Positions 4,709 to 22,572 of a stretch of DNA of 22,572 bases are shown piece after piece (position 1 is the stretch's first letter; every line of letters begins with the position of its first letter). The notes under the pieces are model-generated. The model was not told the origin of the DNA and did no database searches. It saw nothing but the letters and a program-made list of their open reading frames with translations. Source of the stretch: Baffinella frigidus (Eukaryota > Cryptophyceae > Cryptomonadales > Baffinellaceae). The stretch is from the NCBI GenBank assembly GCA_026770585.1, contig MU647487.1, positions 26,797 to 49,368 of the forward strand, given 5' to 3'. Both the position numbers and the translations under genes were made by a program.

Positions 4709-4779
<71 letters not shown>

Positions 4780-5112
4780 CAGAGACAGAGACACTCCCGC
4801 AGGCCATCGGTGACGCAGAGCTCGGCCGGGAGCATCGCCAGCCTCCTCGGCGCGCCCATCTACCTCTCCCCCACCGCCAGGTGATGTGACCCCGGGAGGA
4901 GAGAGAGCAAGAGACAGTGAGACAGAGAGGGGTAGAGAGAGAGAGAGAGATAAAGAGAGAGAGAGAAAGAGTGCGCCCACCTACCTCTCCCCCACTGCCA
5001 GGTGAGGTGACCCCGGGGGGAGAGAGAGCAAGAGACAGAGAGATAGAGAGGGATAGCGAAAGAGAGAGATAGAGAGAGAAAGAGCGCCCACCCGCCTCTC
5101 GCCCACTGTCAG
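4554..5112 (+). CDS. Four tandem phase-symmetric exons, unknown protein
   Basis: Two 78-nt exons (4554-4631 and 4803-4880) and two 30-nt copies of their 3' part (4972-5001 and 5083-5112). Each begins with one nucleotide of a split codon and ends with two (AG|GT), so all can be joined or skipped without shifting the frame. The long copies encode PSVTQSSAGSIASLLSAPTY followed by LSPTA, the second with two substitutions (S to G, T to I). The short copies encode APTYLSPTA and APTRLSPTV. The introns start alike (GTSANGYGACCCCGGG, then GGAGAGAGAGCAAGAG) and run into GA-rich and GACA microsatellites with almost no pyrimidine tract. The family is not recognised. Exon status is inferred from splice sites, equal phases and preserved length. 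Confidence 0.5.
4683..4790. repeat. GA and GACA microsatellite
   Basis: (GA)n followed by about 17 GACA units, inside the candidate intron between the first two duplicated exons. The later introns of the set hold only GA-rich sequence, so the GACA expansion is private to this intron. Confidence 0.9.
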
Positions 5113-5169
5113 GTCTCGCCAACCCTCAGCACCCTCAGTGGGGGAGAGCACCCCGTGTGGTTGCGCGCG

Positions 5170-5826: not shown

Positions 5827-6854
5827 GTTTTCGTGGTGGCAAGGCCTGTAAAGTCGCTCGTTTCTGGTACAAATTACGGGCGTGGTGTGCAGGTGGCGCG
5901 GCGAGGGCAGTCTGTTGCGGGGAACGCCGCGGCGGAGGGTCACCATCCCCGACAGGTTTGCTCCCTCTTGCTCTCTCACGCTTACTCTTTCACTCGCTCT
6001 CACTCTCTCACTCTTACTCTCTCACGCTCGCACGCTCACACTCTCGCACTCTCACACTCTTATCCTCGCTCTCGCACACATCCGCATCGTACACACGTGC
6101 CGCGGGAGGCCAAGCGTTACAAACAAACGCGGAGTTTTGAACGCTCGTGCGGGGGGGGTGCAGGCAGAGGCCTCTGCTGGGGAGGCGCGCTCGGTCGACG
6201 GGTGGGATGCACGCTCCGTGGATTGGGATTGGGACCATCAGGAGGACCCCCCGCCGCAGGAACGTGCGCACTCTCCCCTCATCGCATCAAAGCATCGTGC
6301 ATCGCCCGGGAAGGACCAGCGAACGCAGCGGCCCACAAAGGAGCAACAGCGGACGCAGCGGGAGCCGCCGCGCATGGCTGGAGGGCGATCTGTGGATCGG
6401 GATCGGGGGCAGGAGTACCCACCGCAGGACCAGCAGCTGCAGCGGACGCGGCGTCCAGCAATCAGCGGGCTGTTTGTTGCGGAGAACGCCGTCCAGCAAT
6501 ACGCTGAGCCTCCGCTGACGGCTGGGGGGCCGCGCGGGGGGCAGAGCGTCGTCGTGTGGGTCGAGGGGCTGCAGGTAGTGGCCGAAACCTTAAACCCTGA
6601 ACCCTGACTTAAACCTTAAACTTTAAACCCTAAACCCCAGCCCATAACCCCCAACCCCTAAACCCTAAACCCTGCCCCACACCCTGAACCGTAGTGCCTG
6701 ATCCCTAACCCCTGATCCCAGGACCCTCAACCCTAAACCCTCAACCCTCAACCCTAAATCCTGAACCCTACCCGAAACCAATCCTGAACCCTACCCTAAA
6801 CCCGGGCTGCAGGTTGTGGATGATGGGGAGCTGTTCGACGACTCCATGTGTTGA
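5827..6854 (+). CDS. 3' exons of an unrecognised Arg/Gln/Pro-rich protein
   Basis: Exons 5827-5955, 6164-6574 and 6813-6854 are all phase 0 and join into one open frame ending in TGA at 6852-6854. The first has acceptor GCGCAG and donor CGACAG|GTTTGC; part of it could be a separate short intron (GTAAAG..GTGCAG). The second follows GGGGTGCAG, encodes 137 residues and ends GGGCTGCAG|GTAGTG. The last encodes VVDDGELFDDSMC. The long exon is Arg/Gln/Pro-rich with an imperfect internal repeat (RSVDWDWDHQEDPPPQ versus RSVDRDRGQEYPPQ). A VAENA/VAGNA motif recurs between exons one and two. Intron one is a CT-rich tract and intron two a heptamer array. The 5' end is not found, and no domain is recognised. 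The frame joining supports the last two exons best. Confidence 0.6.
5956..6163 (+). other. Intron with CTCTCAC/CACTCT repeats
   Basis: GT at 5956 and CAG at 6161-6163 bound a tract of CTCACACTCT-like units (about 5965-6075), a long pyrimidine-rich stretch on the sense strand. Reading through it produces a Ser/Leu/Thr-rich open frame that I regard as spurious. Confidence 0.5.
6575..6812 (+). other. Heptamer-array intron
   Basis: Begins GTAGTGGCC, passes through degenerate CCTAAAC/CCTGAAC units and ends CCGGGCTGCAG. Removing it joins phase-0 exons and leads to a short C-terminal exon with a natural stop. The C-rich strand is the sense strand. Confidence 0.6.
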
Positions 6855-6862
6855 GTGTCGCG

Positions 6863-6968
6863 TACAGGGGTACCTCGCGCATAAGAAACCGTCCCCCCAC
6901 TAGGACCACCATGTCCTCCTGTTGGGTCCTAGGGGGGGGCGGTTTCTTATGAGCGAGGTACCCCTGTA
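6863..6968. mobile_element. MITE copy A, TACAGGGGTACCTCGC ends
   Basis: Near-perfect foldback: TACAGGGGTACCTCGC followed by ATAAGAAACCG, mirrored at 6942-6968, with a CTAGGACC/GGTCCTAG inner arm. It begins eight bases after the stop codon at 6852-6854. Related copies lie at 9030-9136 and 14085-14207. No transposase is present, so it is non-autonomous. Confidence 0.85.
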
Positions 6969-6994
6969 CTGTTTTCTCCAGCACTCTGGAGAGA

Positions 6995-7057
6995 AAGTCA
7001 CTCCGGCTATGCCTACGTCTGGGGATGAACCCCACTTAGGCATAGCCGGCGTGACTT
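6995..7057. repeat. 21-bp inverted repeat (hairpin)
   Basis: AAGTCACTCCGGCTATGCCTA (6995-7015) is mirrored at 7037-7057 with one mismatch around a 21-nt loop. It lies in the presumed 3' flank of the gene ending at 6854. It could be a very short foldback element. Confidence 0.75.
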
Positions 7058-7221
7058 CACCCTCAGAAGCAATGGATTCAACGTCTGTCGAGGCGGGCGT
7101 ATCCCCGGATAGTCATCTCACGTGTGGGTGCACCGGGGGGGGGGGGGCGTGCGCTGTAGATGCACAGTGTGTGTGGGTGCGCGGTTGTCCAACGCAGTCG
7201 GCAACGTGCGCGTATGTGTTC

Positions 7222-7227
7222 AATAAA
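7222..7227 (+). promoter_or_regulatory. Possible polyadenylation signal
   Basis: AATAAA in a locally AT-richer context (TTCAATAAATATCAAG), 368 bases after the stop codon at 6854. Whether this lineage uses AATAAA is not known from the sequence. Confidence 0.25.
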
Positions 7228-7270
7228 TATCAAGTGAATCTACGAAGCCTTTCTTCGTCCTTCTGCCTAC

Positions 7271-7395
7271 ACAGCGGGCTACGAAGGGATTCGGCAATAA
7301 TCCATATGCGATAAGGCATACGACGCTACGGTGGGCAACCCGTGGGGACATTGGGGGGTTCCTACGGATCACAGGGTAATTCCTTCGAAGAATTA
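7271..7395. mobile_element. Dispersed element with CTACGAAGGGATT ends
   Basis: GGGCTACGAAGGGATT at about 7272 is mirrored imperfectly by AATTCCTTCGAAG near 7379-7391. The interior (GGCAACCCGTGGGGACATTG, then GGGGTTCCTACGGATC) is shared with about 20650-20690, where GGCTACGAAGGGATTAT appears on the opposite strand near 20717-20733. Non-coding. Confidence 0.55.
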
Positions 7396-7457
7396 TGTCC
7401 AACGGTGTGGAAATTGTGGAAATGTGAACCAACACCGGGCATGATTCGGCCTGGGAG

Positions 7458-7813
7458 GAAATTAAAAGGCACGCTAGGGAGGTTCAGCAGTCAGAGGACA
7501 CGAAGCCCTCCTCTGCAGATGATGTGTTGCAAATGTTCTCGCAGGTGCTAGCTCTGCCCCACTTAGACTTGAGCTCCCCATAACCCCCCCCCCCCCCCCC
7601 CATTTGACAGGGGAATTTTGACCCCCCCCCCAGGAAATTCCCCTGTGAAATTTTGGGGGGGGGGGGAAATTTATGGGGAGCCCAAATCTAAGTAGGACAG
7701 AGGTAGGGTAAACTTGCGCACAGCCGTGGCCGGGGCGCCCGAGCGAGCATACTCCTCCCCATTTGCACCCGCTCCCCCAACACCTTCCTCGGTGGATTCA
7801 AGCTGCTGCACCG
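7458..7813 (+). CDS. Two exons of an unknown protein split by a TIR element
   Basis: Exon one ends at 7544 (TTCTCGCAG|GTGCTA) and encodes EIKRHAREVQQSEDTKPSSA, then DDVLQMFSQ. Its 5' edge is uncertain; 7458, after CTGGGAG, is one choice, and an in-frame stop at 7425 bars extension much further. Exon two, 7707-7813, follows AGAGGTAG in phase 0, encodes ASILLPICTRSPNTFLGGFK within 35 codons and exits in phase 2 at CACCG|GTGAAA. The joined frame has no stop. An alternative acceptor at the CGCACAG a few bases downstream also gives open frames. No domain is recognised. The next exon, if any, would lie in or beyond the heptamer lake. Confidence 0.45.
7545..7706 (+). mobile_element. TIR element coinciding with an intron (introner-like)
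   Basis: The 162-bp segment starts GTGCTAGCTCTGCCCCACTT and ends, as reverse complement, CTACCTCTGTCCTACTT, with arms of about 36 bp continuing through GCTCCCCATAA. The inner part has C and G runs and CAGGGGAATTTT/AAATTCCCCTG arms. Donor GT and acceptor AG fall at the outer edges of the element, so the TIRs carry the splice sites. The CTAGCTCTGCC terminus is shared with the repeat at 13111 and the intron at 18597-18808. Confidence 0.65.
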
Positions 7814-8221
7814 GTGAAAAGCGCCCCAACCGTAAACCCTCACCCTAAACGGTAAACGCTAAACCCTGAATCCTAAACCCTCAACGCTGAACCCTGGAAC
7901 CTAAACCCTGAACCCTGAACCATAAACCAGAAACCCCAAAGCCTAAAGCCTAAACCCTAAACCGACGAACTCTAAACCCCAAACCCCAAACCCTAAACCC
8001 TACACCCTAAACCCGAAACCCTAAACCCTAAACCCTGAACCCTAAACCCTTAACCCTAAACCCTAAACCCTAAACCTTAAACCCTAAACCCTAAACCCTA
8101 AACCCCAAACCCTAAACCCCAAACCCTGAACCATACACCCCAAACACTAAACCACAAACCCCAAACCATAAACGTTGAACCAAACCTAAACGTCAACTCT
8201 CCAACTTTTTCAACAGTTTTA

Positions 8222-8300
8222 TTTGACTGTTTATGTTCATAAACTTAAGGATTGTTTATGTTCATAAACTTAAGGTTTATATTCATAAACTTAAGGACCT
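8222..8300. repeat. Three tandem units of TTTATGTTCATAAACTTAAGG
   Basis: Three copies of about 25-30 bp, each containing the near-palindrome TTTATGTTCATAAA; the third is shorter and reads TTTATATTCATAAA. An AT-rich island in the heptamer lake; function unknown. Confidence 0.8.
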
Positions 8301-8315
8301 GAAACATGGTCTTTC

Positions 8316-8465
8316 TAGGAAGCATGGCTTTTCTGCTGGACAAGTTTCGGTGTCCGCCTAGGTTGGGAACGCGAAAAACCTAAAGGACCTAAAAATTCTG
8401 CAAGATAAGTTCCGGTGTACGCCTTTGGTGGGAGTTGAAAGAACCTGAAGGACCTAAAGGATTTT
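8316..8465. mobile_element. Two tandem copies of introner family I
   Basis: Two adjacent copies (about 8316-8388 and 8396-8462) share GTTYCGGTGTMCGCC, then a GGGAnnnGAAARAACCTRAAGG block and GACCTAAA. The same sequence occurs at 16318-16404 and 18405-18507, in each case at or inside an intron of the minus-strand gene. All copies have the same plus-strand orientation. Here they lie in non-coding sequence. Confidence 0.7.
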
Positions 8466-8769
8466 TCGACCCTCAAACTCAAACCTTGAACCTTAAACCC
8501 TAAACCCTGAACCCTAAACCCCACCCCCCAGACCCCAAGCCCTAAAACAAAAACATGATAAACCTTCAAACCTACACCGAACAACCTGAACTCAAAACCA
8601 TAAACCCTAAACCCTACACACTAAACCTTGAACCCACACCCGCAAACCCTAAGCCCTGAACCCTAAACCCTGAAAACTAAACCCCAAACCCTGAAAACTA
8701 AAACCTAAATTCTAAATCTTCAAGCCTCGAGTCTCAACTCTAAACCCTGGACCCTAAACCCTACCGCTG

Positions 8770-9000
8770 CCGAGCGAGGACGTGATTCAATTTGAAAATA
8801 TTTTCAAAACTTTTACCTGAATCCTAAGGGAAATTGATTTTTAAAATAAAAAGGCCGGCACCAGAATTCCGGTCCCAGCTTTTGAATGAAGCTCCAGTTG
8901 CCTCCATAGCGGGCCATGAACTATTGACAAAGAAACGTAAAACGTAAAACGTGAACCCCCAAACCCCAAACCTTAAACCCTAAACCCTAAACTCAGCCGC
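8770..9000. other. Unassigned island
   Basis: AT-richer sequence (8780-8935) with no frame, motif or similarity to other parts of the window that I can identify, followed by AAACGTAAAACGT units and a short heptamer block. Confidence 0.4.
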
Positions 9001-9029
9001 GCACACACAGAAATCTGAGAGAGAGGAGC

Positions 9030-9136
9030 TACAGGGGTACCTCGCTCATAAGAACCGCCCACCCCCCTAGGACCCTACAGCATGGTCCTATGGCGACCTA
9101 GGGTGGTGGGCGTTTCTTATGTGCGAGGTACCCCTA
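9030..9136. mobile_element. MITE copy B, TACAGGGGTACCTCGC ends
   Basis: Same foldback as at 6863-6968: TACAGGGGTACCTCGCTCAT, then AAGAACCGCCC, an inner CCTAGGACC arm, and a mirrored end GTGCGAGGTACCCCTA. It is embedded in the heptamer lake. Confidence 0.85.
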
Positions 9137-9139
9137 TGC

Positions 9140-10018
9140 AGGGCGTATCGAGAGGTAGAGCAGTAGAGCGGTTTGATGACGCATCAGTTGACCACGGAAA
9201 AGAATGAAACAATGCCAATAGTTGAAGATGCTGATACCAACGTTCGCCATTCTGACGTTGTGAACCATAAACCCTGAGACCTGCATCCAAAAGGCCCACG
9301 CACTCTCATGGAATTTTGGCTGCTGCAAACAAGCACCTGGAAGGGCATTTTCTTGCAGGAAGGCCTGAAAGATCAAACGGCTCCAATCACAGGCCTTGGT
9401 CGACTCAAATCTGAGAAAATGGCTCCACCAACTCCCTGAGGATCAGGTTAGGGACGGTCCGTCCCATTCGGATCCCCTTAGCAGATCCATAGGCAACTGT
9501 ATAGGACGGTCGGACTTGGAGCCATTTGCATGTTCGTGGTACAAACTTGGTTCAGGGATTTGCAAGGTGGCGCGGTTGAACCTAACTTTGGATTTTGCCC
9601 CACCTTCCCGATGCCCGATTTGAAAAAGTGAACCGAGCAGCACCCAAACTCGGACCACGGCACTGTGTTTGTAAACAAGCCCCTGCGAGGCCATTTCCTT
9701 GCAGGGAGACCTGAAAGATCGAACGGCTCCAATTCCAGACCGCTCTTCGTTTTAAAACGTTTTAATTGCCTCAAATCTGAGGAAATGGTCCCGTTCAGAT
9801 CCCCTGGGCAGATCCTTTCTACGGAAGTGCGTATCGATCAAAAACCAGGCGCACAACCTCTTTTTGGAAAACTTCAGGTTATGAAAGCCTGTCTTATGAA
9901 CAAACCTGTGCTCTTTCTGCGACGACACGATCAACTCTGCGAACGCAAAAAGAGCGCCGCAGCCTCCTGCTTCTCTGAACCCCAGGAGATTGTTGAGATA
10001 AGGGAAGAATCAGGGCCC
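9140..10018. repeat. Non-heptamer island with a 350-bp-spaced direct repeat
   Basis: About 9325-9490 and 9672-9815 are diverged direct copies. Shared blocks include GGCATTTTCTTGCAGG/GGCCATTTCCTTGCAGG, CCTGAAAGATC followed by AACGGCTCCAAT, CTCAAATCTGAG with AAATGG, and GATCC. Overlapping frames of 60-118 codons on both strands show no domain and are interrupted, so no gene is called. It could be the eroded remains of a larger element. Confidence 0.55.
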
Positions 10019-13000
10019 TGAACCCTGACCCCTAAACTGTAAACCGTAAACCCTGAAACCTTGACCCTGAACCCTGCCCTCTGAACCCTGAACCCTCGTC
10101 CCTTCACCTGGAACCCTAAACCCTAAGCTCTTATCATTGAACCATAAACCCTGGCCCCCAAAGCCTAAACCCTGAACCCTAAACATTAAATCCCAAACCC
10201 TAAACCCTCCACCCTGAACCCTAGACCCTTACACCCCAAACCCTGAACACTGAACCCTAAACCCTCAAACCTGAACCATCAACCCTGAACTCTAAACCCT
10301 GAACCCAAAACCGCCAACCCTGAACCCTAACCCCGAAATCCTCAACCCTAAAACCTAAACCATAAACCCTAAACCCTCAACCCTCAACCTTAAACCATAA
10401 ACCATGAAGCCTAAACCCTAAACCCTAAACCCTGAACCCTAAACCCTAAAACCCAAACCATAAACCCTCAGCCCTAAATCTTGAACGCTAAACGCTAAAC
10501 CCTAAACCCTGAACCCTGAACCCTGAACCATCAACCCTAAACCATAAGCCCGAAACTTGAAACCCAAAACCCTACACACTGAATCCAGAACCCCATGCCG
10601 TGAACCCTCAACCCCACACCCTAAACCCTGCATACCAATCCCTTCACACTCAACCCTAAAATCACAACCCCAACCCCTAACCCCTAACTCCTTAACCATA
10701 AACCCTGAACCCTGAAACCTAAACCCTAAACCCTAAACCATAAACCCTAAACCCTAAACCCCAAACCCTAAACCCTAAACTCTAAACCCTAAACGGTGAA
10801 CCCTGAACCCTCAAAGCCTAAACCCTTAACCTTAAACCTTGAACCCTAAACCCCAAACCCTAACTTTTGACCCTAAACCCCAATCCTCTCCTAAACCCTG
10901 AACTCTAAACCATGAACCCTAAACCCTTAACCCTGAACCCTGAAAAAAATCCCAGAACCCTAAACCCTAAACCACGAACCCTGAACTTTGAAAACCTGAA
11001 CCCTTAACTTAAACCTTGATACATGAATCCTAGTCCCAAACCTTGAACCATGAACCCTAACCCCCTTAACCCTGAACCCTAAACCATGAACTCTACACAC
11101 TAAATCCCGAACCCTAAACTCCAAATTCTTAACCCTGAACCCTGAACCCTAAACCGTTAACTCTAAACTCTAAACCCTCAACCCTAATCCCTAAACCCTT
11201 AACGGTAAACCGTAAACCGTAAACCCTAACCCTACACCCTAAACCCTCAAACCTTATCCCTAAATCCTAAACCTGAAACCCTGAACCATAAACCCTGAAA
11301 ACTAATCCCTTGAACCGAAACCCTGAACCCTGAACACTGAACCTTGAAACCCGAACCCCAATTCTTATACCTTGAACCCCTAAACCCTAAACCCTAAACC
11401 CTAAACCCTAAACCCTGAACCCTAAACCATAAAACATAAACCCTAAACCCTAAACCCTAACCAAACCCTAAACCTTCAACGACAAAAAATACACCTCAAA
11501 TCGTAAACCCTAACCACTGAGTTCCGATGATTGTATTAGATGGTACATTCTGCCCAATATATATTGGCTCCAACATATATGAGCCATATATTGGCTCCAG
11601 TGTTCACAAAAGCCCCACACCGTGAACCGTCAAACCTAAACCCTAAACCCTAAACACAAATCCCAACCCCCTAAAACCGAAACCCTGAACCTTCAACGCT
11701 AGACCGTAAACCCTGAACCCGAAACCCTAAACTTGAAACCTGAACCCTGATCCCTGAACCCTGAACCATGAACCCTAAGCCCCACACCCTCACCTCTATA
11801 CCATAAACCATGACTATGAAACCTGAACCCCAAACCCCAAATCCAAACCCCTTAACTTTGAAAACTGAACCCAAAACACTGACACCCTAAACCCTAGACC
11901 CTCAACTCCAATCCCCAAACCCTCAACTCTCAACCCTAAGCCCTAAACCGTCAACCTTAAAACCTATACCCTAAACCTTAAAAACACGAACCATAAACCA
12001 TGAACCATACGCCCTAAACCCGACACTTTACACCCTACACCCTACATCCTAACCCTCAACCCTAATCCCTCCCTAAAACCCTCAACACCAACCCCTCAAC
12101 TGTAGACCCTTAACCTTCAACCTTCAACCTAAACCAAAACCCCTTAACCCTTGACCCCTAAACCCAACCCTCCACCCCTGACCCCCAACCCCTAACCCCT
12201 AACCCCCAACTCCTAACCCCTGACCCCGAACCCCTAGCCCCTAGCCCCTAACCCCTTAACCCCAACCCCTACAACCGAAACGCTAGTCCTTGGACCCTGA
12301 ACCCTGAACCAAGAACCCTGAACCCTGCACCCTGAGCCCTGAACCCCGAAGCCCGAACTCTCACCCCCAACGCCTGAACCGGAAACCATACACCATAACT
12401 TTTAAAGCCCAAGTCCATACGCCTAAAGCCTCAAGTGTAAAACGTAAAACCATAAAGCGTAACCCCTCAACTCGATACCTTCCTAAATCCTTAATCCCGA
12501 ACCCTGCCCCTCAACCCTGAAGCCGTCTGCCTTCTGCCTTCACACAGCTGAGGGGGTGAGTTGCTCTGAACTCTAAACCCCTCAGCCTCTGCAGATCTGA
12601 GAAATTGAATTGCCTTGAACCTTAAACCAGAACCCTTAACCGCGAACCCCAAACAATGAACCCCTGAACCCTAACCCCCAAACCCCAATTCCCAAGCCCC
12701 CAATTCTGCAGCCTAAACCCCCAAACCCAAACTTGTGACTCCGGAACCCCAAACTTCAAACCCCAACCCCTAAACCCTAAAACCCAACCCCAAACTCCAT
12801 TGCCACTACAATGCTGAGTGGAGGCTGACGAAAACCCCTAAACCCTACACCTTGCACCCTCAACCCTAAACCCTAATCCCCCAACCCCCAATCCTTCATC
12901 CTATACCCTCAAAACCCAAACCCTAATCCCCAAACCCCAAACCCCGCACCTTAAACCCTTTAACCGAAGTGTACCACACCCTACCCCCCGAAGGTGCCAG

Positions 13001-13080
13001 AGCTCGTGTGAAACCCCGAACCCTGAACCCCCAAACCCCGACCCCAAACCCTAAACGGTACGTGTCCTTAATGACGAGTA

Positions 13081-13250
13081 ACCCCTGCAGCGCGACAGTG
13101 CTCCCAACACCTAGCTCTGCCTCACACGGGTTGGCCGACTTTTTTTAAGTTGTCATGCTGGGGTTTCGGGGCAAATCTGTCAACTTTGGAGTAGGGACGA
13201 GCTCGGCCTTACCAAATCGAGACCGAACAGACTGAGATAGCGCTAGAACA
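13081..13250. mobile_element. Dispersed element, introner family II copy
   Basis: CTAGCTCTGCCTC at 13111, an AAGTTGTCATGCTGGG block at about 13147-13162, TGTCAACTTTGGAG near 13178, and ACCAAATCG with CCG near 13210-13225. The same ordered blocks, in the same sense relative to the intron, make up much of the intron 18808-18597 on the minus strand. Just upstream, CCCTGCAG followed by RDSAPNT and a stop could be a terminal exon, but nothing confirms it. Confidence 0.65.
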
Positions 13251-13512
13251 CTGCTGATGAGTGTCATATATGTCTGCCGAGGCAGGCCTATCCCCAGGCA
13301 GTGCTCATAGGGCCCTACTGTAGGCATGTGGAAATACACGCTCCTGGACACGGACTCGTCCGTGACAGAAATCAACTATCACAGCCAGACCGACCAATCC
13401 TCCTGAGGGGTTACATGTAGGGTGGCGCTTTCGTTATTTCGAGGCAATCCCGTATGCGAACGGACCCTGCAGACGCTAACCCCAAACCCTACACCCTACA
13501 CCCTACACCCCA
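13250..13512. other. Unassigned stretch
   Basis: Contains GGGCCCTACTGTAGG (about 13310), also found in the intronic element near 14987, and a short block of CCCTACA heptamers at 13485-13510. A minus-strand 76-codon frame runs through the element above and is judged spurious. Confidence 0.4.
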
Positions 13513-13880
13513 AGACACAGCCTCGGTGGGGGTGCATACATAGACTACATGTAAAACGTCTCCCCTTGGAGGCGTTTCCAAGGCGCCTCCTAAAGAGACC
13601 TCCTGAGCGAGAGACGGCGTTGTGTGCGCGCAGCCCTCCATCTCAACGATTCCCGGTACAGACAGAATGGAATTTAGGCCCTGTATATGTACATAATGGC
13701 TCAAATGCCGCCCTGATTTTGAGATAAATTTTCTCAAGGGACCCGATGAGTTCCATAATGAGAGAGAGGGGCCCCTGTAGTAGCTGACGCACGGATGGCG
13801 GTTCGGGCACTCGACTAGATACATGTAGACCTTTATTAGTGCCAACACGGCCGCCATGCACACACACCGAGGCTGTGTCT
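13513..13880. mobile_element. Inverted-repeat element of about 370 bp
   Basis: AGACACAGCCTCGGTG followed by GGGGTGCAT at 13513-13537 is mirrored at 13854-13880. The interior has frames on both strands but no domain. TTTATT at 13832-13837 (AATAAA on the minus strand) lies about 410 bases beyond the propeller stop codon and could serve as its polyadenylation signal. Confidence 0.6.
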
Positions 13881-13913
13881 GAGTAGGGACGACGAGAGAG
13901 GCCATGTGCACTC

Positions 13914-14045
13914 TACATCCCTTACGTGGCAAGTAGGCGCATCCCTTACGTGGCGAGTAGGCGCATACGCTCCTACCTAGGCCTATGTATATGTGGGGGC
14001 CTACGCCCCTATGCGGGTCCAATATGACCCACTGGCAACTTAAGA
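13914..14045. mobile_element. Inverted-repeat element with a 24-bp tandem duplication
   Basis: ATCCCTTACGTGGC followed by RAGTAGGCGC occurs twice in tandem (about 13917 and 13942). The right end (about 14014-14050), on the opposite strand, reads CATCTCTTAAGTTGCCAGTG. The consensus end CATCCCTTAAGTG matches the perfect TIR of the element at 14929-15030. Confidence 0.5.
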
Positions 14046-14084
14046 GATGAATGTGTACGCAGGACCTTCAGGTCGTGCGCACTC

Positions 14085-14207
14085 TACAGGGGTACCTCGC
14101 TCCTAAGAAAGCGCCCCCCCCCCTAGGGACCACCACAGGGCCCCAGAAATAGGGTTACAGTAGGGTCCTGGGGGGGGGCGTTTTCATATGAACGAGGTAC
14201 CCCTGTA
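14085..14207. mobile_element. MITE copy C, TACAGGGGTACCTCGC ends
   Basis: TACAGGGGTACCTCGCTCCT at the left is mirrored by AACGAGGTACCCCTGTA at the right, with CCTAGGGACC/GGTCCTG inner sequence. It ends 41 bases from the stop codon of the propeller gene (14249, minus strand), on its 3' side. Confidence 0.85.
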
Positions 14208-14248
14208 GTCGGTCGCAGGAATTCTCTCACTCGTTGTCGTCAAAGGAC

Positions 14249-17200
14249 CTAGGCGATGGCCACGAGAAGCAAGGCCCCTTCGCGCGTCCCCACCACGGCC
14301 CGCGCCGCGTCGAGGAGCACGGGGCTCGACGTCGCGTTCCCTGCTTGAGGGTGTAGGTTTTAGGGTTTAGGTTTTAGGGTAAAGGGACAGGGGTCAGGGT
14401 TCAGAGATTAGGGTGTAGGGTTTAGAGTTTAGGGTTTAGGGTTTAGGGTTGAGGGTTTAGGGTTTAGGGTTAAGAGATGAGGGTTTAGGGTTTAGGGGTC
14501 AGGGGTCAGGGTTTCGGGTTTAGGGATTAGGGTTTCGGGTTTCGGGTTTCGGGTTTAGAGTAGATGACCGAGCACCGCCTCGCGGAGAGTCGCCCCAGAC
14601 GTAGCATTCACGAGCAGAAGGCGCCCTAGGGTTCAGGGTTTAGGGTTCAGGGTTGAGTGTTTAGTGTTTAGTGTTTAGTGTTTGGAGTGGAGGGTTTAGG
14701 GTCAAGGGTTGAGGGTGTAGGGTTGACCGTCGCGCGTGGCGTAGTAGAGGGCGGCTCGGTCTGGCGTTGCGGGCGGGCGCAGGGCCGCCTCGAACGTCGC
14801 CGTGCCGTCCTCCCGCGACACCGTGGCCTAGAGTTTCGGGTCTCGGGTTTGGGGTTTGGGGTTTTGGGTTTCGTGTTTTGGGTTTCGTGTTTGGGTTTTT
14901 GGGGTTTAGGGTTTGGGGTTTATTGTTGATCCCTTAAGTGACCATGCCTCCAAATTTGGGGGCCTGAGGTCCTAGGCAGGTCCTAGGGCCCTACTGTAGG
15001 GCGTATGAGCCTACTGGGCACTTAAGGGATGGTGTATGGTTTGGGATTTTTAGGGTTTAGGGTTTAGTGTTGAGGGTTTAGGGTTTAGGGTGAACCTGTT
15101 CCGCTGTCCAGACCACGTGGCCGTCTGCGGTATCGAGCGCGCACGGGTGGTCCCTACCGTTCCGGGTTTAGGGTTTAGGGTTTAGGGTTTAGAGTTCAGG
15201 GTTTGGGATTTCGGGTTTCGGGTGTAGGGTTTAGTTTTCAGGGTTTCGGGTTTGGGGTTTACCCGCAGCGCGTGACGAGGAGAGCGCCGTCGGGCGAGAG
15301 GTTGGCGTGGGCAAATTCAGGCAAGCTGTGCACTGCGCCGGCGGTGCGCCACATCACGCTCCCGTCCGCAGCGCTCAACGCCGCCACCCTGCCGCTGTAC
15401 TCGTGCAGGAAAATCGTTGCTTCGTCGTGGCTGAGCGTCGGCCCCTGGCGAATGGGTGTGATCCCCCACGGCTGGACCTTCCATTTCTGGGAGAACGTGT
15501 GCGCGTCGAAGGAGTAGATGTATCCCCACTCGCTCGTGAGATAGATGGTGCCCCCGTCCGCGGAGATCGCCGGAGGCCGCGAGTGCATCCCTCCGGTCTG
15601 TGTCAGGCACCACAGCTCCGCCCCCGTCGACGCGTCGAGGTTGCACACGTGCTTCCCACTGAAGGAATCAGGGTCCCGGGTGATCACCACCCAGACCGTG
15701 GTGTCATCGGCGCTCGGCATTGCAGACGTCGCCTGCGCGCGAGTAGCGTAGCGCCAGAGCTCTGCGCCGGTGCTCGTGTTGAAGGCAACAAGGGCCTTCG
15801 GTTCGCTTCCGATGTAGAGACGCGTCCCGTCATGACTCAGCGCGAATGCTTGCAGCGCCGCCCGCTGAAACTGGTCCGCGCCTCCGCTCGGGTGTTGGAA
15901 GGGGAAGAGCACTTTGCCGGATTCCACGTCGACGGCGAACATGCCCTGCGCACGTAGGACGTGGAGTTAGAATCCATCCTGCAAATGCTCGTATGAGCGG
16001 CGGACACGGGGTACAGTAGTGGCACAATGCGTAGCATGTGTGGCGCGGACGCTGGTTGTTTGGAAACAAATTATCACCCTCTCTCTGCCCTGCACACGGG
16101 GTACAGTAAATAGCAAAATACGTGAGGCATGTGCGGTGCTGGCGCTCATAGTTTAGCACTGAATTACCAATATCTGTCTGCCCTGCGCACAGATTGAGAG
16201 GGCGTATGTCAGCACGAGGGGCGTTCTGGCGTGGTACACACCTGGGCGAGGACCCACGACGGATGGGGGTGCACGGACATGCTCACGCGTTGGTGTGGTT
16301 CCTTTTTGCGTGGGGAAAGGAAGCATGGCTTTCCCGCAGAACACGTTCCAGTGGCCGCCTATATCGGGAGCTCGAAGAACCTAACGGGCCTAGAGGGATG
16401 GCACCTTGGCGCAGGGCACGTAGACGACGTCGGCGCCTGGCGACTTGAGCAGCTGCCCAACCGAAGTCCCCGCGCACTCGTCGATAGTGATGCGCCGCAG
16501 GAGTGAGCCCCACCCCGCGTCCTGATCGTCGATTATGGATTGGGGTTCAGAGTTCAGGGTTCAGGGTTCAGGGTTCAGAGATTAGGGAGAGATCAGGGAT
16601 TAGGGATTAGGGAATAGGGATTAGGGAATAGGGATACGAGATGAGGGATTAGGGATGCGGGATTGGGATTCAGGGTTTAGGGTGCAGGGAAAGGGATTAG
16701 ACCGCGGCGACAGGCGTGGCGGAGTTGACGAGCCGCAGGTGCGAGTCTGGGCCCCACGGCACGAAGACACCCGCCGCCTGAGAAGGGAGGGCGCCAGGGT
16801 GAGAGTGGCGAGAGATTGCGGGCAAGAGTGCGAGGGAGTGCGGGTGAGAGTGAGGCCACTTAGCCACCGTGGCCACTTATGGCGACACGTGGACCGTTCT
16901 TAGGTGGACCGCTCTTAGAGGGAGAAAAAACGCGCGTTTCTCAGGGACCGCAACAGGGCCACTTTGTGTTCCCTTCCGTGCGGGCCGTGTACCTCTAGGA
17001 CCTCAACGCCAAAGAACGTTCTTTCGCCTGTGTTGACGACTGTTCGGGTTCCGGGTTTCGGGTTTCGGGTTCTGAAAACCGATGAGTGTTCCAGGGTTCA
17101 GAGTGGAGGGTGGAGGGTTGAGGATGGGCGGGCTCGTTCCTTCAGGCTCGTAGACTATTGCATCACTCAACTCAAGACTTAAGAGCCTTTCTAAGACCTG

Positions 17201-17572
17201 GATCGAGAGTAAAAAAGAAATAAAAAAGATGGTGGGTGGCGCACACCTCATCGAAGACGAAGCAGAAGAAGGAACTGGTCCCGTTGGCGCACGCGTGCCG
17301 GTCCTCGCACACCCACACCTGATTTCGGTCGCATTCTTGCGTCACGAACCAGAGGAGAGGAGGGTGGGGAGTGTGTGCGTATCGCGAAGGGGTGTTCGCA
17401 TCTCGCGCACGTGTGGGGACACCCACCCCTGATCTGCGCATCCACTTAGCTGGGGCCGGTGACTTTGGGAAATGGGCCCAAAGTTGATTCTCACCCGGGG
17501 GACACGTCAAAGATCAGCAATGTGTAGAGTAATCTGACTCGGAAATCCCGGGGGGGAGGGCAACGGTGGCTG
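14249..17572 (-). CDS. PQQ-type beta-propeller protein, multi-exon
   Basis: Well-supported exons in transcript order: 16777-16703, 16521-16405, 15945-15263, 15153-15096, 14827-14728, 14625-14569 and 14340-14249, ending in TAG. Their phases are consistent at every junction. The joined protein shows the blade signature (strand, turn, xLyalDxxtGxxlW) about eight times: VYVPCAK/GMFAVDVESGKVLF, VAFNTSTGAELWRY, VCNLDASTGAELWCL, IYSFDAHTFSQKWKV, VAALSAADGSVMWRT, CALDTADGHVVWTA, LLLVNATSGATL and VVGTREGALLLV. This matches PQQ/BamB-like and quinoprotein-type propellers, which act as binding platforms or as PQQ enzymes; no dehydrogenase active site was identified. Weaker upstream exons are 17572-17495 (FRVRLLYTLLIFDVSPG), 17318-17247 (Cys-rich, ends FCFVFDE), 17197-17167 and 17027-16993. 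The last three chain in phase; the first does not connect cleanly. It may continue the Cys-rich gene upstream. Confidence 0.85.
14341..14568 (-). other. Heptamer-array intron of the propeller gene
   Basis: On the sense strand, GTCATCTACTCTAAACCC through 7-bp units to CCTCAAGCAG. The length is 228 bp; between GT and AG there are 224 bases, equal to 32 x 7, although one unit has lost a base and the end has gained one. No non-heptamer sequence of note. Splicing joins CTCG to GGAACGCG in phase 1. Confidence 0.85.
14626..14727 (-). other. Intron that is exactly GT + 14 heptamers + AG
   Basis: Sense strand: GT, then CAACCCT, ACACCCT, CAACCCT, TGACCCT, AAACCCT, CCACTCC, four AAACACT units, CAACCCT, GAACCCT, AAACCCT, GAACCCT, then AG. 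This is 2 + 98 + 2 = 102 bases with no remainder. Flanking codons join as GAC G|GG CGC (phase 1), restoring ATRDG/RLLLVN, a canonical propeller turn. Confidence 0.9.
14828..15095 (-). other. Intron: heptamers plus an inserted TIR element
   Basis: Sense strand begins GTTCACCCTAAACCC and ends AACTCTAG. Between heptamer blocks sits the element 14929-15030. Joins CAG|GCC in phase 0. Confidence 0.8.
14929..15030. mobile_element. 102-bp MITE inside a propeller intron
   Basis: Perfect 12-bp ends: ATCCCTTAAGTG at 14929-14940 and CACTTAAGGGAT at 15019-15030. The interior has CCAAATTTGG and CCCTACTGTAGGG palindromes. Heptamers continue on both sides, so it inserted into an existing array. Confidence 0.8.
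15154..15262 (-). other. Intron that is exactly GT + 15 heptamers + AG
   Basis: Sense strand: GT, then units AAACCCC, AAACCCG, AAACCCT, GAAAACT, AAACCCT, ACACCCG, AAACCCG, AAATCCC, AAACCCT, GAACTCT, three AAACCCT, AAACCCG, GAACGGT, then AG: 2 + 105 + 2 = 109. Flanking exons join as TGC GG|G GAC, giving LLVTRCG/DHPCALDTADG across a propeller turn. Confidence 0.9.
15999..16190. repeat. Direct duplication of about 90 bp
   Basis: Two diverged copies, each starting ACACGGGGTACAGTA and continuing GCA(A)AATrCGT, GCATGTGyGG and GCTGG, and ending in a CTGCCCTGC block (about 16002-16088 and 16095-16188). Lies inside the 459-bp intron. Confidence 0.65.
16318..16404 (-). mobile_element. Introner family I copy at the 5' end of an intron
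   Basis: Sense strand after the donor: GTGCCATCCCTCTAGGCCCG, then TTAGGTTCTTCGAGCTCCCG, TAGGCGGCCAC, GCGGGAAAGCC. It aligns block by block with the intron 18507-18405 and with the two copies at 8316-8465. Confidence 0.75.
16522..16702 (-). other. Heptamer-rich intron with ATCCCTA variants
   Basis: Sense strand GTCTAATCCCTTTCCC to AATCGACGATCAG, mostly CCCTAAT/CCCTGAA-type units. It joins two phase-0 exons (GCCGCG|GACGCG). The donor is weak (GTCTAA). Confidence 0.65.
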
Positions 17573-17679
17573 CTAGGTGGCAAGGGCCACGAATGAGAGG
17601 AAAGAGAAGAGAGAGTGCACTGGTGGGGAAGGTTAGTCTGGTTACGCGTCCGCCTCTGTGCGCGCCCCCAGCCCGCTTG

Positions 17680-17945
17680 TACAACTGTACACCTAACTAT
17701 ACACCTCTACACCTGTACACCTGTACACAGGTGCAACTGTACACCTGTACACCTGTGCAACTAACTGTACACACACCTGCACACCAACTGTACACCGTTA
17801 CACCTGTACACCTACCTGTAAAACCACCGCTAAAACTCTACAACTACCACCACAACAGTACAACTACCAGTACACCTGTACACCTGCACAACTGTACGAC
17901 TATAAAACTACCAGTACAACTCTACAATGCAACTCTACACCTACC
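17680..17945. repeat. TACACCTG/TACAACTG minisatellite
   Basis: Irregular units of TACACCTG and related TACAACTA. It lies between the Cys-rich exons and the first propeller-side exons and may be intronic on the minus strand. A long plus-strand frame runs through it and is judged spurious. Confidence 0.8.
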
Positions 17946-18006
17946 ACAGCAACAGCACCTCAAAGCGCGGCGCCTCAGTGAGATCCCCAAGCCCCCCCCT
18001 CCTGAA

Positions 18007-18034
18007 CCCCCCCCCCCCCCCCCCCCCCCCCCCC
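18007..18034. repeat. Poly-C run
   Basis: 28 consecutive C. On the minus strand it would encode poly-Gly directly after the last convincing residues of the Cys-rich protein, so the exon probably ends before or near it, or the run is a sequencing or assembly artefact. Confidence 0.8.
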
Positions 18035-18035
18035 G

Positions 18036-19296
18036 CAATGAGCCCATCCCAATCCGTCCCAATCGCACAGCCCGCCACGGAGGGGTCAGCGCCCCACCGG
18101 ACGTGGGGGCCCCAGGTGTAGAGGGAGGGTTCGTCTTCTACGGCAGTGATCTGCACGGCGGCGCAGTTGGTGCTCCCCTCCGCGGAGTCAGCGCCCGCGG
18201 GACACACCGTGCAGCCGTACGGGGACGCGACCTCGCCCGTGCCCCTGCCCGTCGAGGAGTAGGTCCCTGCGGGGCAGTGGCGCAGCCCGCAGTTGTCGCA
18301 GTTGCCCGCATCAACGCGGTACCCGTTGTAGTATCCGTAGAGGTAGCAGTTTCCTTTCCAGCCAGTGCAGTAGCCGCCGCCCGCGGAGGAGCACACGCCG
18401 CAACCTGCACCGCAAAAGGCGAGATGCTTGAAACACACCGCGATTATCCTGCGGGAAGGGTTGGTGTCCGCCTATGGCGGGAGCTCGGAAAACCTAATGA
18501 GCCTCACCGATGTGGTAAGAGGTGCCGCAGCTGCCCGAGACGTCCGAGGCGCTGGCGCGGCAACCCTCGTATTTGCAGTCATCGTGCGACGTACACCTGG
18601 GGGGGCGCGAGGGGCAGCTCAGAACACGATCAGTCTACTTGGGCGGAGCAATTTGGTGAGACAAGGCTCTTTCCCGCTCCAAAGTTGACGGGTTTGTACC
18701 ACGCACCCAGCATGTCAACTTGAGAATACGCAGCCACGACAACAGAGGCAGAGCTACGACTGGGAAGTGAGCGTGGGCATTCTGAGCATTCTGAGCGGGA
18801 GGGCTTACCTCTGGAGATTGAGGATCGCGTCGGGAGCCGGCGTGGCGGATTCTTCCAGCGGCGGTGGGGAGGTCGTCTGAAAGGTGCAGTTCACGCTGCC
18901 CTCCACCGAGTCACCCCCCGCGGGACACACTGTGCAGCCGTACGGGGACGCGACCTCGCCCGTGCCCTTGCCCGTCGAGGAGTAGGTCCCCGCAGGGCAG
19001 TGGCGCATCCCGCAGTTGTCGCAGTTGCCCGCGTCGACGCGAGACGACCCATACGACCCATACAGGTAGCAGTTTCCTTTCCAGCCAGTGCAGTAGCCGC
19101 CGCCCGCGGAGGAGCACACGCCGCATGCTTTGTGGTTGGTGGTGCCGCAGCTGCCCGAGACGTCCGAGGCGCTGGCGCGGCACCCCTCATACTTGCAGTC
19201 ATCGTGCGTCTCACACTGCTGCAGATTCAATGCCGACACCTCGCCGAGGGCGAGGACGAAGAGGCAGGCGACGAGCACCACGCAGCGCGGCGTCAT
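18036..19296 (-). CDS. Secreted Cys-rich protein with two ephrin-receptor-like repeats
   Basis: Exons 19296-18809, 18596-18508 and 18404-about 18036. The start is placed at the ATG at 19296 because MTPRCVVLVACLFVLALGEV is a good signal peptide; a longer open frame upstream has no such logic. The mature part carries two copies of one module: HDDCKYEGCRASASDVSGSC, ACGVCSSAGGGYCTGWKGNC, DAGNCDNCGMRHCPAGTYSS, then SPYGCTVCPAGGDS. The last part fits the ephrin-receptor-like/GCC2-GCC3 Cys-rich family, typically extracellular. Copy one is intron-free; copy two is split by an intron. Phases agree at both junctions (AG|G, then G|GT). After copy two comes AVQITAVEDEPSLYTWGPHV and GCAIGTDWDG, not recognised. 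The 3' end is unresolved because of the poly-C run; it may be the N-terminus of the propeller protein downstream. Confidence 0.85.
18405..18507 (-). mobile_element. Introner family I as a complete intron
   Basis: 103 bp, donor CATCG|GTGAGG and acceptor TTGCGGTGCAG|GTTGC. The interior TTAGGTTTTCCGAGCTCCCG, TAGGCGGACACC and CCCGCAGGA matches the copies at 16318 and 8316. It interrupts repeat two between SCGTSYHI and GCGVCSS; the equivalent point of repeat one (SCGTTNHK, ACGVCSS) has no intron. This indicates gain in one copy or loss in the other. Confidence 0.85.
18597..18808 (-). mobile_element. Intron largely made of introner family II
   Basis: 212 bp, donor CCAGAG|GTAAGC and acceptor CCCCCCCAG|GTGTAC. 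Sense-strand blocks TAGCTCTGCCTC, AAGTTGACATGCTGGG, CGTCAACTTTGGAG and ACCAAATTG recur in order at 13111-13235. CAACTT arms within it are inverted. It separates the two Cys-rich repeats. Confidence 0.8.
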
Positions 19297-20271
19297 CTCG
19301 ACGGAGGTGTGGTGTGTTGCCACAAGTACCTGCATTTCGCCACTGGTTATGAGCATCTTGGTGTGCGGGCTGAGCTGGCAGGGGCCCTCGCTATGAGCCT
19401 GGTGTGCGGGTTGACGGGGCAGAGACGAGGCGTGGACCTGTGGGCCAGGTGGGTGGGCGGGCAGGGAAAAGGTGGGCGGGCGGGCAGGGGGAACCAGGCA
19501 ATGACCACGTGTGCTTCGAGCGCGGGCGTGGAGGCGGGGCACGGGGGCTGCACCTTCTCTGGTTTTGGGAGCGAATTCGCTCCCAAAATTCGCTCCCAAA
19601 ACCAGAGAAGGTGCAAAAGCTTTGGAAAGGTTTGGTTTTTAGTCAATTACTTGCGAACAGAAAAAAAAATATTTTTTGGGCAGGCGCTTGTCAGGTTATT
19701 CAAAAGTCAACTCTTCATTGAAAAAGCCTGAATAAAGCTCAAAAGTTGAGGTTCCTTCCTGTTTTGTCACTTATACACACTGAACTTGTACACAATAACC
19801 CTTTAACGGCTTCTCAGGTCTAAGGTTGTTTGACCATTTTGGAGGGCGATAACCTGTTTTTATAACAACACTCAATCTTTGGAGGACAAACCAGGGGCGA
19901 CCTTTCACGTCTTAAAACATAGATCCCCTTGCTTAAAAGTCGATCGGAAGAACCGAGAGGTACACGGTTTGGGCCTGCCCGCCACCCCCGCAGCCCTCGC
20001 CGGGCGAGAACCCGCGTCCCGCCCCCCTGCAGGTAGGACATGGCTGGCTGCGGGGCCTGGGGAGTGCGTTGCAGGAGGTGTGCTCCTATGGAGAGTGCTT
20101 TACAATCTGTCACAATCCTTCCTTTCCATGTGCGGGGGCAGCGGGCTTCGCTGAAAGCACCCTGGAAACTGAGCTGCTCGCCACTGCTCGCCACAGGTCG
20201 GGTGGTTGGCGGGCTGAGAGAAGAGAGACGGAGCGCAGCCCCCGGGTGGGATCGGGGGGGACAGCACGGAC
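19297..20271. promoter_or_regulatory. Divergent intergenic region between two secreted-protein genes
   Basis: Separates the ATG at 19296 (minus) from the ATG at 20272 (plus), so it should hold both promoters and 5' leaders. It contains the hairpin at 19549-19615 and an AT-rich part (19620-19960), which is the most AT-rich extended stretch nearby. No TATA box or defined motif could be assigned. Overlapping frames here are not supported. Confidence 0.5.
19549..19615. repeat. Perfect 29-bp inverted repeat (hairpin)
   Basis: Arms TGCACCTTCTCTGGTTTTGG, then GAGCGAATT (29 bp without mismatch), around the 9-nt spacer CGCTCCCAA, which itself repeats part of the arm. It lies about 250 bp upstream of the Cys-rich start. 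It could be a recent foldback insertion or a structured regulatory element. Confidence 0.9.
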
Positions 20272-21097
20272 ATGGCGCGCTCCACAAGCAACGTTGCGGC
20301 AGCTCGGCTGGCCCTGATCCTACTTCTCCTGTGCCTCGTCTCGCCCGTTTCTGCGGCGGTCAGCTACCCGCCCCACACCCTCCACCACACAACCTACACC
20401 GGAACTCCCAAACCCTCCCTCCCGCCGCTCCCGTTTCCCCGACCCTGCTGGGAGTGCACATGCGGTATCCCGACCCCGACCCTGCGGGGCATGCACACGT
20501 GAAGTTTCCCTGCCCCCCCCCGCCCCTCTTGCGACCCGCTGGCCAGCGATCGTCGGAAGCATTGTGTTTGCAGCCCACCAACCCACACAGCGGACTTGGA
20601 AGGGATTTTGAATAACCCCTAAGCGATGAGACGTTGGACCCTACAGTAGGCAATCCGTAGGGACATAGGGGGGATCCTACGGATAAAGTAACGGAAACTC
20701 GGGCTCTCAGTGCCCGATAATCCCTTCGTAGCCCTCTGTGTGGCCTCACGGGCTGAGCAAATCGATGATTTTCCATTTTCCATTTTCAGGGCAAACTGGC
20801 TCCACGAACGCCTGAATCTGGTGGGCTCCCAGGCAAATACGTGGCCTCAAAATCGACGATTTGCTCCGCCCGTGAGCGGTGAGGGTAAGTGGTCGTGTTT
20901 GAACCTGGCGCGGGAGGGGGTTGGGTGCTGTCGTGCTGCTTCGGGGCTGATGTGCTTTGTATTGCACTCACATCTCCTCCTTACTCCTGCCTCGCCACAG
21001 AAGAGACAGGCGACACTCTGACGGGCAGGGCCCCGGACGGTGCAAAACTTTTCTGTCTGTCTCTCTGTCTGTCTGTCTGTCTCTCTGTCTCTGTCTG

Positions 21098-21171
<74 letters not shown>

Positions 21172-21983
21172 GTATACATATATATATTATAGATGTATAT
21201 ATATGCTCACCCGGAGTTCCCTGCAGGTGCAAAGTGTGGCGTTCGCGGCAACGGGCCCGCTCGAGTGGTTCATCACCTGGGTGGAGGAGGTAAACCCTAC
21301 ACCCTCAACCATGAACCCTAAACCCCCAAACTTCAACTCCAAATTCCAAACCCAGACCCCCAAGTCAACAGGCCCGCTTGAATGGTTGATCTCCTGGGTG
21401 GAGGAGGTAAACCCTACACCCTCAAAACCCTCAACCCTCAACCCTCAACCCCAACCCCTTGCCCAAACCCATAAACCCGAAACAATTAAGCCCAGACCCT
21501 AAACCCTAAACCCCAAACCCCAAACCCTAGACCCTAAACCCCAAACCCTTAACCCTTAACCAGGATGGGGTGAAGCAGACATACACTCTCGCGATCCGCG
21601 ACATCCCAGCGAGGACGTAAACCCTACACCCCACACCCTCAACCCTGACCTCCAAACCCTCAACCCTCAACCCCAAACCCTCAACCCTAAACCCTCAACC
21701 CTGAGCCCTGAATCCTAAACCCTACTTGATTCCTGATACCTCAGACCAATTGCTCCAGTTGATTCTAACACCTCTGAAAACCTCACACGTACACCCCACA
21801 CCCCAACCCCTAAACCCCAAACCCTCAACCCCAAACCCTCAACCCTCAACCCCAAGCCCTCAACCCTAAACGCTGAACTCTAAACCCTAAACCCTAAACC
21901 CTGAACCCCAAATCCGTAACCTTACTCCCTCAACCAGGTCGTGGATCAAATCAGACATCCCCGCGGGACAGTTCTCGTTCGCG
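20272..21983 (+). CDS. Secreted protein with FN3-like segment, 3' end outside window
   Basis: First exon 20272-20358 encodes MARSTSNVAAARLALILLLL then CLVSPVSAA, a clear signal peptide, with donor GCGGCG|GTCAGC. Downstream exons are 21227-21289 (acceptor CCTGCAG), 21564-21616 and 21938-21983, with an alternative or duplicate exon at 21365-21406. Exons 21227, 21564 and 21938 chain in phase (0, 0, 2) and read GPLEWFITWVEE / DGVKQTYTLAIRDIPAR / TSWIKSDIPAGQFSFA. The spacing of Trp/Tyr and the YTLxIRD and IPAGxFxF patterns suggest an FN3-like beta-sandwich; this is an impression, not a firm family call. A possible exon at 21001-21039 (ETGDTLTGRAPDG) does not join exon 21227 in the favoured frame. 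Exons between 20358 and 21227 are unresolved, so linkage of the signal peptide to the FN3-like part is inferred from strand and order. Confidence 0.65.
20622..20735. mobile_element. Second copy of the CTACGAAGGGATT element
   Basis: GGCAATCCGTAGGGACATAG, then GGGGATCCTACGGAT, matches 7334-7378. The right end GATAATCCCTTCGTAGCC is the complement of the 7272 end. It lies in the presumed first intron of the plus-strand gene. Confidence 0.55.
20745..20876. mobile_element. MITE, CAAATCGTCGATTTT family
   Basis: CTCACGGGCTGAGCAAATCG, then ATGATTTT, at the left is mirrored by AAAATCGACGATTTGCTCCG, then CCCGTGAG, at the right (two mismatches). It shares the inner arm with the element at 2374-2531. Confidence 0.8.
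21050..21200. repeat. CTGT/CT/TA compound microsatellite
   Basis: (CTGT)n, (CT)n and (TA)n in succession, just upstream of exon 21227. On the sense strand it supplies a long pyrimidine tract followed by a TA-rich stretch before the acceptor CCTGCAG. Confidence 0.9.
21290..21937 (+). other. Three heptamer-array introns
   Basis: Introns 21290-21364, 21407-21563 and 21617-21937 all start GTAAACCCTACACCC; the fourth, at 21984, starts GTAAATCCTACACCC. In each, the first heptamer follows the exon immediately. The first is GT + 10 heptamers + AAG, and the second is close to 7n with indels. The third holds a non-heptamer island at about 21722-21790. Acceptors are CCCCAAG (or AACAG), TTAACCAG and CTCAACCAG. 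Confidence 0.75.
21365..21406 (+). CDS. Duplicated exon, possible mutually exclusive alternative
   Basis: 42 nt encoding STGPLEWLISWVEE, a copy of the 3' part of exon 21227-21289 (TGPLEWFITWVEE). Of five differences in the shared 39 nt, four are at third codon positions, and the two amino-acid changes are conservative (F/L, T/S). With the AAG acceptor at 21364 it is in frame; with the CAG acceptor seven bases downstream, inclusion after exon 21289 would reach TGA within six codons. Confidence 0.55.
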
Positions 21984-22572
21984 GTAAATCCTACACCCTC
22001 AACCCTACACCCTACACCCTACACCCTACACCCTACACCCTACACCCTACACCCTACATCCTACACCCTACACCCTACACCCTACACCCTACACCCTCAA
22101 CCCTACACCCTACACCCTACACCCTACACCCTACACCCTACACCCTACACCCTACATCCTACACCCTACACCCTGCACCGTAAACCCTACGCCCCACACC
22201 CTCAACCCTACACCCTCCACCCTCAACTCTAAACCCTAAACCCCAAAACCTAAAACCATCAACCCTACACCCAACACCGAACAACCCACACCCTGCACCA
22301 TAAACCCTAAACCCCAACCCTACACCCTTAACCCTACACTCTACACCCTACACCCCACACCCTCAACCCTACAACCTAAACCCCGAACCCTACACCATCA
22401 ACCCTCAACGATACACCCTACACCTTAAATACCAAACCTTAAACCATCAACCCTACACCCTACATCCTACACCCTACACCCTACACACTAAACCCTAAAC
22501 CCTGAATCCTAAACCCCAAATCCTAAACCATAAACCCTAAACCCTACACCCTACACCCTACACCCTACACCC
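21984..22572 (+). repeat. CCCTACA-dominated heptamer array to window end
   Basis: Begins as the intron GTAAATCCTACACCC. About 22000-22180 is almost pure CCCTACA, the most homogeneous block of the window, implying recent local expansion. It then mixes with CCCTCAA and CCCTAAA. No further exon is visible before the window ends. Confidence 0.8.

Follow-up and report, generated by a model that had tools for sequence, protein, structure and literature searches.

Degenerate arrays of the telomere-like heptamer CCCTAAA form most of several predicted GT-AG introns in Baffinella frigidus, and they probably work as introns, since the unit contains neither GT nor AG when it is read in the sense orientation. 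These arrays were studied in a stretch of 22,572 nucleotides of contig MU647487.1 (positions 26,797-49,368), referred to here as the window, and in other readable parts of the assembly. The participation of telomere-like arrays as nearly whole introns is supported, judging from the predicted exons and the proteins that they encode, in two genes: T484DRAFT_1919940 (P0001), located in the window, and a PLAA/Doa1-like gene located on contig C68.

Array Introns in T484DRAFT_1919940

The gene T484DRAFT_1919940 (P0001, 695 aa), found at 14249..19296 of the minus strand, encodes cysteine-rich N-terminal repeats and a C-terminal PQQ/BamB-type propeller. The public model of P0001 mapped exactly onto this strand, from 19296 to 14252, using the splice junctions proposed in an initial annotation of the window, and a 400-aa spliced protein was 100% identical to T484DRAFT_1919940 over 99% of the spliced length. 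Between 16777 and 14252, the model presented six exon junctions, which corresponded to the three of the initial annotation and three more.

Arrays were called with a seven-phase heptamer HMM that was learned from the window, starting from CCCTAAA, and whose consensus was CCCTAAA. In five of the six P0001 introns, a degenerate CCCTAAA array accounted for 64-98% of the intron length. These introns, all on the minus strand, were i1 (16522..16702; 181 nt, array coverage of 0.87), i3 (15154..15262; 109 nt, coverage of 0.94), i4 (14828..15095; 268 nt, coverage of 0.64), i5 (14626..14727; 102 nt, coverage of 0.98), and i6 (14341..14568; 228 nt, coverage of 0.95). The remaining one, an ordinary intron of 459 nt (15946..16404, minus strand), provided an array-free control. 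The lag-7 identity of i1, i3, i5, and i6 ranged from 0.68 to 0.77, well beyond chance: of the 1000 dinucleotide shuffles made for each intron, the highest value was 0.44-0.52. Within P0001, every HMM array whose length reached 30 nt was found on the coding strand.

The claim that i5 and i3 divide into GT, 14 or 15 heptamers, respectively, and AG was confirmed, with zero leftover bases in both introns. In i3, the first base of the array was the T of the donor GT, and the interior of i5 contained no GT and no AG. The description of i6 as heptamer from end to end stood for its overall length (GT, 224 bases, and AG), but the HMM array (14561-14345) omitted the first seven and the last four bases and included one phase slip. 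The arrays of i4 and i5 ended one base short of the intron end. The array of i4 was split by a 102-nt element (14929-15030) with 12-nt inverted ends (ATCCCTTAAGTG...), and a similar sequence was observed at 13916-14065. Since this element sits inside the array, the array is probably the older of the two.

It had also been proposed that splicing restores an open PQQ-type propeller, and this was borne out by the protein comparison. The spliced exons formed one open frame, a PQQ_2 profile matched P0001 residues 507-669, running across the array junctions, and PQQ-propeller homologs of 19-26% identity aligned through the junctions 594/595, 613/614, 647/648, and 666/667. The three different phases attributed to the introns were found within the whole gene, but the three introns originally cited presented phases 2, 1, and 1, and phase 0 was that of the remaining three. 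With any of the five P0001 arrays retained, translation would reach a stop in frame between codons 2 and 9. The AlphaFold model of P0001, which had a mean pLDDT of 47.6 and several ten-residue blocks of the propeller at 70-88, was left out of the evidence. According to the deposited model and to the coherence of the propeller, the array introns of P0001 are predicted to be GT-AG introns.

Some additional features were found around this gene. At 18508-18596, the sequence looks by eye like the beginning of the first cysteine-rich repeat; the P0001 model leaves this segment out and may have missed an exon there. Upstream of the P0001 start, at 19549-19615, two 29-nt arms form a perfect inverted repeat. 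Contig C17 (1018885-1020118) carries a paralog with 90-91% identity to N-terminal P0001 sequence, covering P0001 residues 1-292, and no propeller match was found for it at an E-value of 1e-8. This paralog was considered as an empty-site comparison for the array introns and rejected, since the duplication is limited to the N-terminal part of P0001 and, therefore, does not cover the array intron sites.

Array Introns in a PLAA/Doa1-like Gene

The PLAA/Doa1-like gene of contig C68 harbored four complete array introns of 459, 409, 143, and 206 nt, all in the sense orientation and alongside ordinary introns, as well as the start of a fifth one, which ran into N. Away from the array introns, the edges of the exons were assigned in part by eye. 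The predicted spliced peptide gave a single continuous match to Protein DOA1 (3odt), comprising residues 5-299 (E-value of 1.8e-45) and extending over three array junctions; other WD40 proteins outscored Protein DOA1 in this comparison. The fourth array junction was spanned by the PFU domain (331-370), which scored 29.9 bits against a cut-off of 26.2.

These comparisons bear on the possibility that gaps or misassemblies were taken for arrays, or annotation errors for introns. Repeats are indeed hard to assemble, but two conserved proteins were restored by splicing, the public P0001 model agreed with the array introns, and each of the five arrays of this gene, if kept, met an in-frame stop by codon 9. 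An artefact is extremely improbable.

Predicted Array Introns in Other Genes of the Window

Array introns were also predicted in two other genes of the window, both on the plus strand. In the second gene, they were placed at 21290..21364, where the acceptor at 21364 keeps the frame open and that at 21371 does not, at 21407..21563 (157 nt), and at 21617..21937 (321 nt), followed by the start of another one (21984..22572) that extends past the window edge. In the third gene, a single array intron of 238 nt was predicted at 6575..6812. Protein searches with these genes returned no match for one of them and, for the other, only the window's own ORF, read into the array. The region 21227-22572 presented tandem copies of an exon plus an array intron within the predicted gene, with a 117-nt period over 21249-21471. 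At 4598-5125, exon-like segments recurred every ~121 nt with GA/GACA-rich repeats between them, and this region is perhaps a further instance of repeat-filled introns.

Of the ten array introns in the window, six had an array whose first base, as placed by the HMM, was the T of the donor GT. Moreover, the start GT(A/C)AA(C/T)CCTACACC was common to five of the ten, four of them in P0001 and one in a different gene. This shared start counts against our account, in that it is not accounted for by arrays drifting at random and apart from one another, and it hints at copying, in which case the introns would be copies of a heptamer-carrying, introner-like mobile element. Such an origin is nevertheless unlikely. 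The introns have the heptamer in common along their length. Visual inspection revealed neither a common 3′ end nor a terminal inverted repeat or a target duplication at them, and an inverted-repeat search of 6700-22572 detected none framing a whole array intron, with the pair found in i4 framing the inserted element only. Since four of the five introns with the shared start are found in one gene with repeated exons, tandem duplication would be enough to account for the similarity.

Sequence Properties of the Arrays and Proposed Splicing Mechanism

The array is a simple repeat with the traits of an intron body, namely, a unit that lacks both GT and AG, weak RNA folding, and stops in all frames. 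The opposite orientation, TTTAGGG, contains both dinucleotides. Altogether, 13 complete array introns were counted, of which five belonged to P0001, four to PLAA, and four were predicted in the two other window genes. Inside them, GT and AG occurred 0.46 and 1.13 times per 100 nt, respectively; four ordinary introns had 5.86 and 5.08, and reversal of the arrays gave 13.68 and 10.79. The acceptor was the sole AG in i1, i3, i5, and P4; at least one inner AG was present in nine of the 13 introns, and a further AG or GT able to compete was found in seven. The minimum free energy per nt of the array introns ranged from 0 to -0.07 (-0.19 for i4 with its insert); the values of four ordinary introns were -0.27 to -0.31, and those of three exons were -0.44 to -0.50. 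In a canonical array, a TAA occurs in every frame each 21 nt. Branch-site-like YTNAY motifs were found within the last 60 nt of five of the 13 array introns, versus three of the four ordinary ones, and the canonical unit yields CTAAA rather than YTNAY. The scarcity of YTNAY in array introns is a point against ease of splicing.

In the proposed mechanism, the sense array would act as a signal-free intron body, the edges of which supply the splice sites. Since the sense unit lacks GT and AG, most of the splice sites available to the spliceosome would be those at the array edges. A sense array located in an exon would be removed once a G precedes TAAACC, generating the donor GTAAAC, and once an AG follows, which could be provided either by the TAG derived from CCCTAA or by a CAG after AAACC. 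Since a retained array would stop translation in any frame, only spliced copies would survive, and a reversed array, full of false splice sites, would be lost. By this testable route, the insertion of the repeat in a coding sequence would be harmless one way round and harmful the other.

Intron Length and the 7n+4 Rule

The initial annotation had put forward, as an intron class, the rule of GT, an integer number of heptamers, and AG, which corresponds to lengths of 7n+4. This rule did not hold as such. Lengths of 7n+4 were found in four of the 13 complete array introns (P = 0.10 against 1/7), which were three of P0001 and P1 of PLAA. Considering the two protein-supported genes, the fraction was four of nine (P = 0.029), in which three of the four were the introns picked by the initial annotation; since they had been picked in this way, the count does not establish an exact class. 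Outside these three introns, one of ten presented such a length, and the array-free 459-nt intron of P0001 is also 7n+4.

A simple arithmetic relates these lengths to the phase of the array at each splice site. The unit holds a single T, and a donor that borrows it is G|TAAACC. When this donor is combined with the acceptor TA|G, one of the two preferred acceptor phases, and no slip occurs, the length is 7n+4. The same donor combined with the commoner acceptor phase, AAACC|AG, results in 7n+2, and a slip breaks both. A class set by the exact 7n+4 length, for which register with both splice sites would itself be required, is consistent with the three P0001 introns and PLAA P1, as well as with the phase preference found genome-wide at both array edges (see below). 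The counts of four of 13 overall and one of ten outside the original picks, the 7n+2 lengths yielded by the commonest acceptor phase, and the slips present in many arrays argue against it and make such a class very unlikely.

Genome-wide Register at the Array Edges

Pattern counts, which do not rely on gene models, were extended to the whole assembly, of 382,457,362 bases in 1,364 contigs. Its readable portion is partial: among 20 sampled 10-kb stretches, 17 were all N, two were about half N, and one was whole. The exact 25-mer of the array occurred 20,138 + 18,847 times (overlaps included), versus 1 + 2 for the reversed pattern. The edge tallies described below comprised the first 100 listed places of each search, which were ordered by contig and not random.

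On the donor side, AGN preceded TAAACCCTAAACCC in 175 places, and among the 100 listed, N (counted by eye) was G in 47, C, which is the array's own base, in 39, A in nine, and T in five. Thus, G preceded the array T in 47 of the 61 non-C places among the 100 listed of 175, compared with an expectation of 0.41 from non-array DNA (P = 1.5e-8). AGGT was found 0-6 nt from an array start in 460 places, versus 92 for the comparison tetramer GATG, a control that covers the donor side alone; the non-array background for these tetramers was 409:299. The most frequent gap between AGGT and the array, which corresponds to the phase of GTAAACCC, was of 3 nt and occurred in 30 of the 100 listed of 460 (P = 4.6e-5 versus 1/7); gaps of 0-2 nt occurred in 12 of them.

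On the acceptor side, AGG was found 0-6 nt after CCCTAAACCCT in 2,971 places. In the 100 listed of these, the gap was of 5 nt (the AAACC|AG phase) in 50 and of 0 (CCCT|AG) in 14, and the distribution differed from an even spread (chi-square P = 5e-22). The base that preceded AG at the array ends was C in 67, T in 23, A in seven, and G in three of the 100 listed of 2,971. At 3′ splice sites, the base before AG usually follows this order, C > T > A > G. When the same edges were tallied in 65 kb of readable DNA, the numbers were too small or unclear (AG-N-TAAAC: G 2, C 4; AAACC-N-GG: A 7, G 7, C 5, T 2). These results indicated that the claimed register with the splice sites does not hold as an exact rule and persists as a softer genome-wide phase preference for donor-like and acceptor-like sites. 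Among the 31 arrays in readable loci outside the window, those of PLAA, the one gene identified there, were counted as introns.

Origin of the Arrays

We infer, less surely, that the arrays would have arrived by insertion of telomere-type repeats, for example, during break repair, and that the array would be an intron from birth. While lacking GT and AG, the repeat could contribute a near-donor, G|TAAACC, and a near-acceptor, TA|G, from its own sequence. If break insertion as observed in mammals happens in B. frigidus, splicing could remove a sense array as soon as it lands in an exon. It is tentatively proposed that the addition of telomere repeats at exon breaks in the CCCTAAA sense would make complete introns and that this would have happened hundreds of times genome-wide.

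Expansion inside old introns may also be considered, in which telomere-like repeats would have overgrown ordinary introns, leaving little beyond the splice dinucleotides. This is a possible origin, held with low confidence. P0001 and PLAA hold ordinary introns too, and a few non-array bases are retained beside the splice site in i1, i6, and several donors (GTGGAC, GTCATC, GTAGTG), as would be expected from expansion. However, the arrays start at the donor T in six window introns and end one base early in i4 and i5 with no remnant of an older flank, and the genome-wide phase preference would need selection afterwards. Arrays that reach the splice sites without an old flank, as found for six donors and for the acceptors of i4 and i5, speak for insertion.

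Concerning the source of the repeat, a clean telomere was not found at the four readable contig ends among eight, and TTTAGGG was not seen there as the telomere of B. frigidus. The last 250 bases of contig C1 comprised a coding-like sequence followed by a degenerate array, with no clean telomere. Three scans of viral contigs gave no match, including the exact 21-mer GTAAACCCTACACCCTCAACC, which was sought in viral contigs only.

Comparison with Known Systems

The source of new introns is a long-standing question, in which simple repeats were set aside by a broad introner survey that removed low-complexity families by design (PMC9860276). In mammals, telomere-type repeats are reported to enter chromosomes at double-strand breaks, in many cases together with nucleotides in register at the break, and, among human interstitial telomeric sequences, 31% are found in introns and none in exons, the intron share being that expected by chance; the study called for tests of how they affect splicing (PMC7215372). 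The arrays of B. frigidus resemble these sequences in being telomere-like arrays placed within chromosomes, which in mammals occurs in one step. However, mammalian arrays sit in existing introns (PMC7215372), whereas in B. frigidus the array fills almost the entire predicted intron and reaches the splice sites.

Introners are also repeated sequences that compose introns from splice site to splice site (PMC9860276, PMC7789003). Transposon hallmarks were not seen for the array introns of B. frigidus. In its available portion, the main text of the introner survey makes no mention of cryptophytes, Baffinella, or telomeres (PMC9860276). A review of intron gain names break repair and transposons among the routes, and telomeres are unmentioned in the available part of its text (PMC3443670). 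In break-repair intron gain, DNA added at a break turns into an intron, as proposed here, but five unambiguous events are tabled for that route, whereas the filler in B. frigidus would be one repeat in many genes (PMC3443670).

Two other systems share part of these features. Plant telo boxes are AAACCCTA motifs found in genes, for which addition by telomerase was proposed, but they are single motifs enriched at gene 5′ ends and not whole introns (PMC3022908). The chlorarachniophyte Amorphochlora harbors lineage-specific introns, half of them with (AT)n repeats and nine at AG|GN sites, but they involve another repeat in another lineage, whose telomere is TAACCC (PMC12730881). Among the matches listed in searches of the open-access literature, telomere-repeat introns were undescribed, and no open-access paper paired Baffinella with introns. 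Array introns may be overlooked or wrongly placed when genes are predicted in genomes of this kind.

Besides the arrays, long inverted arms (TACAGGGGTACCTCG...) characterize a family of palindromic elements observed in the window at 6862-6969, 9033-9135, and 14084-14208. Two of these elements stand just beyond predicted gene ends.
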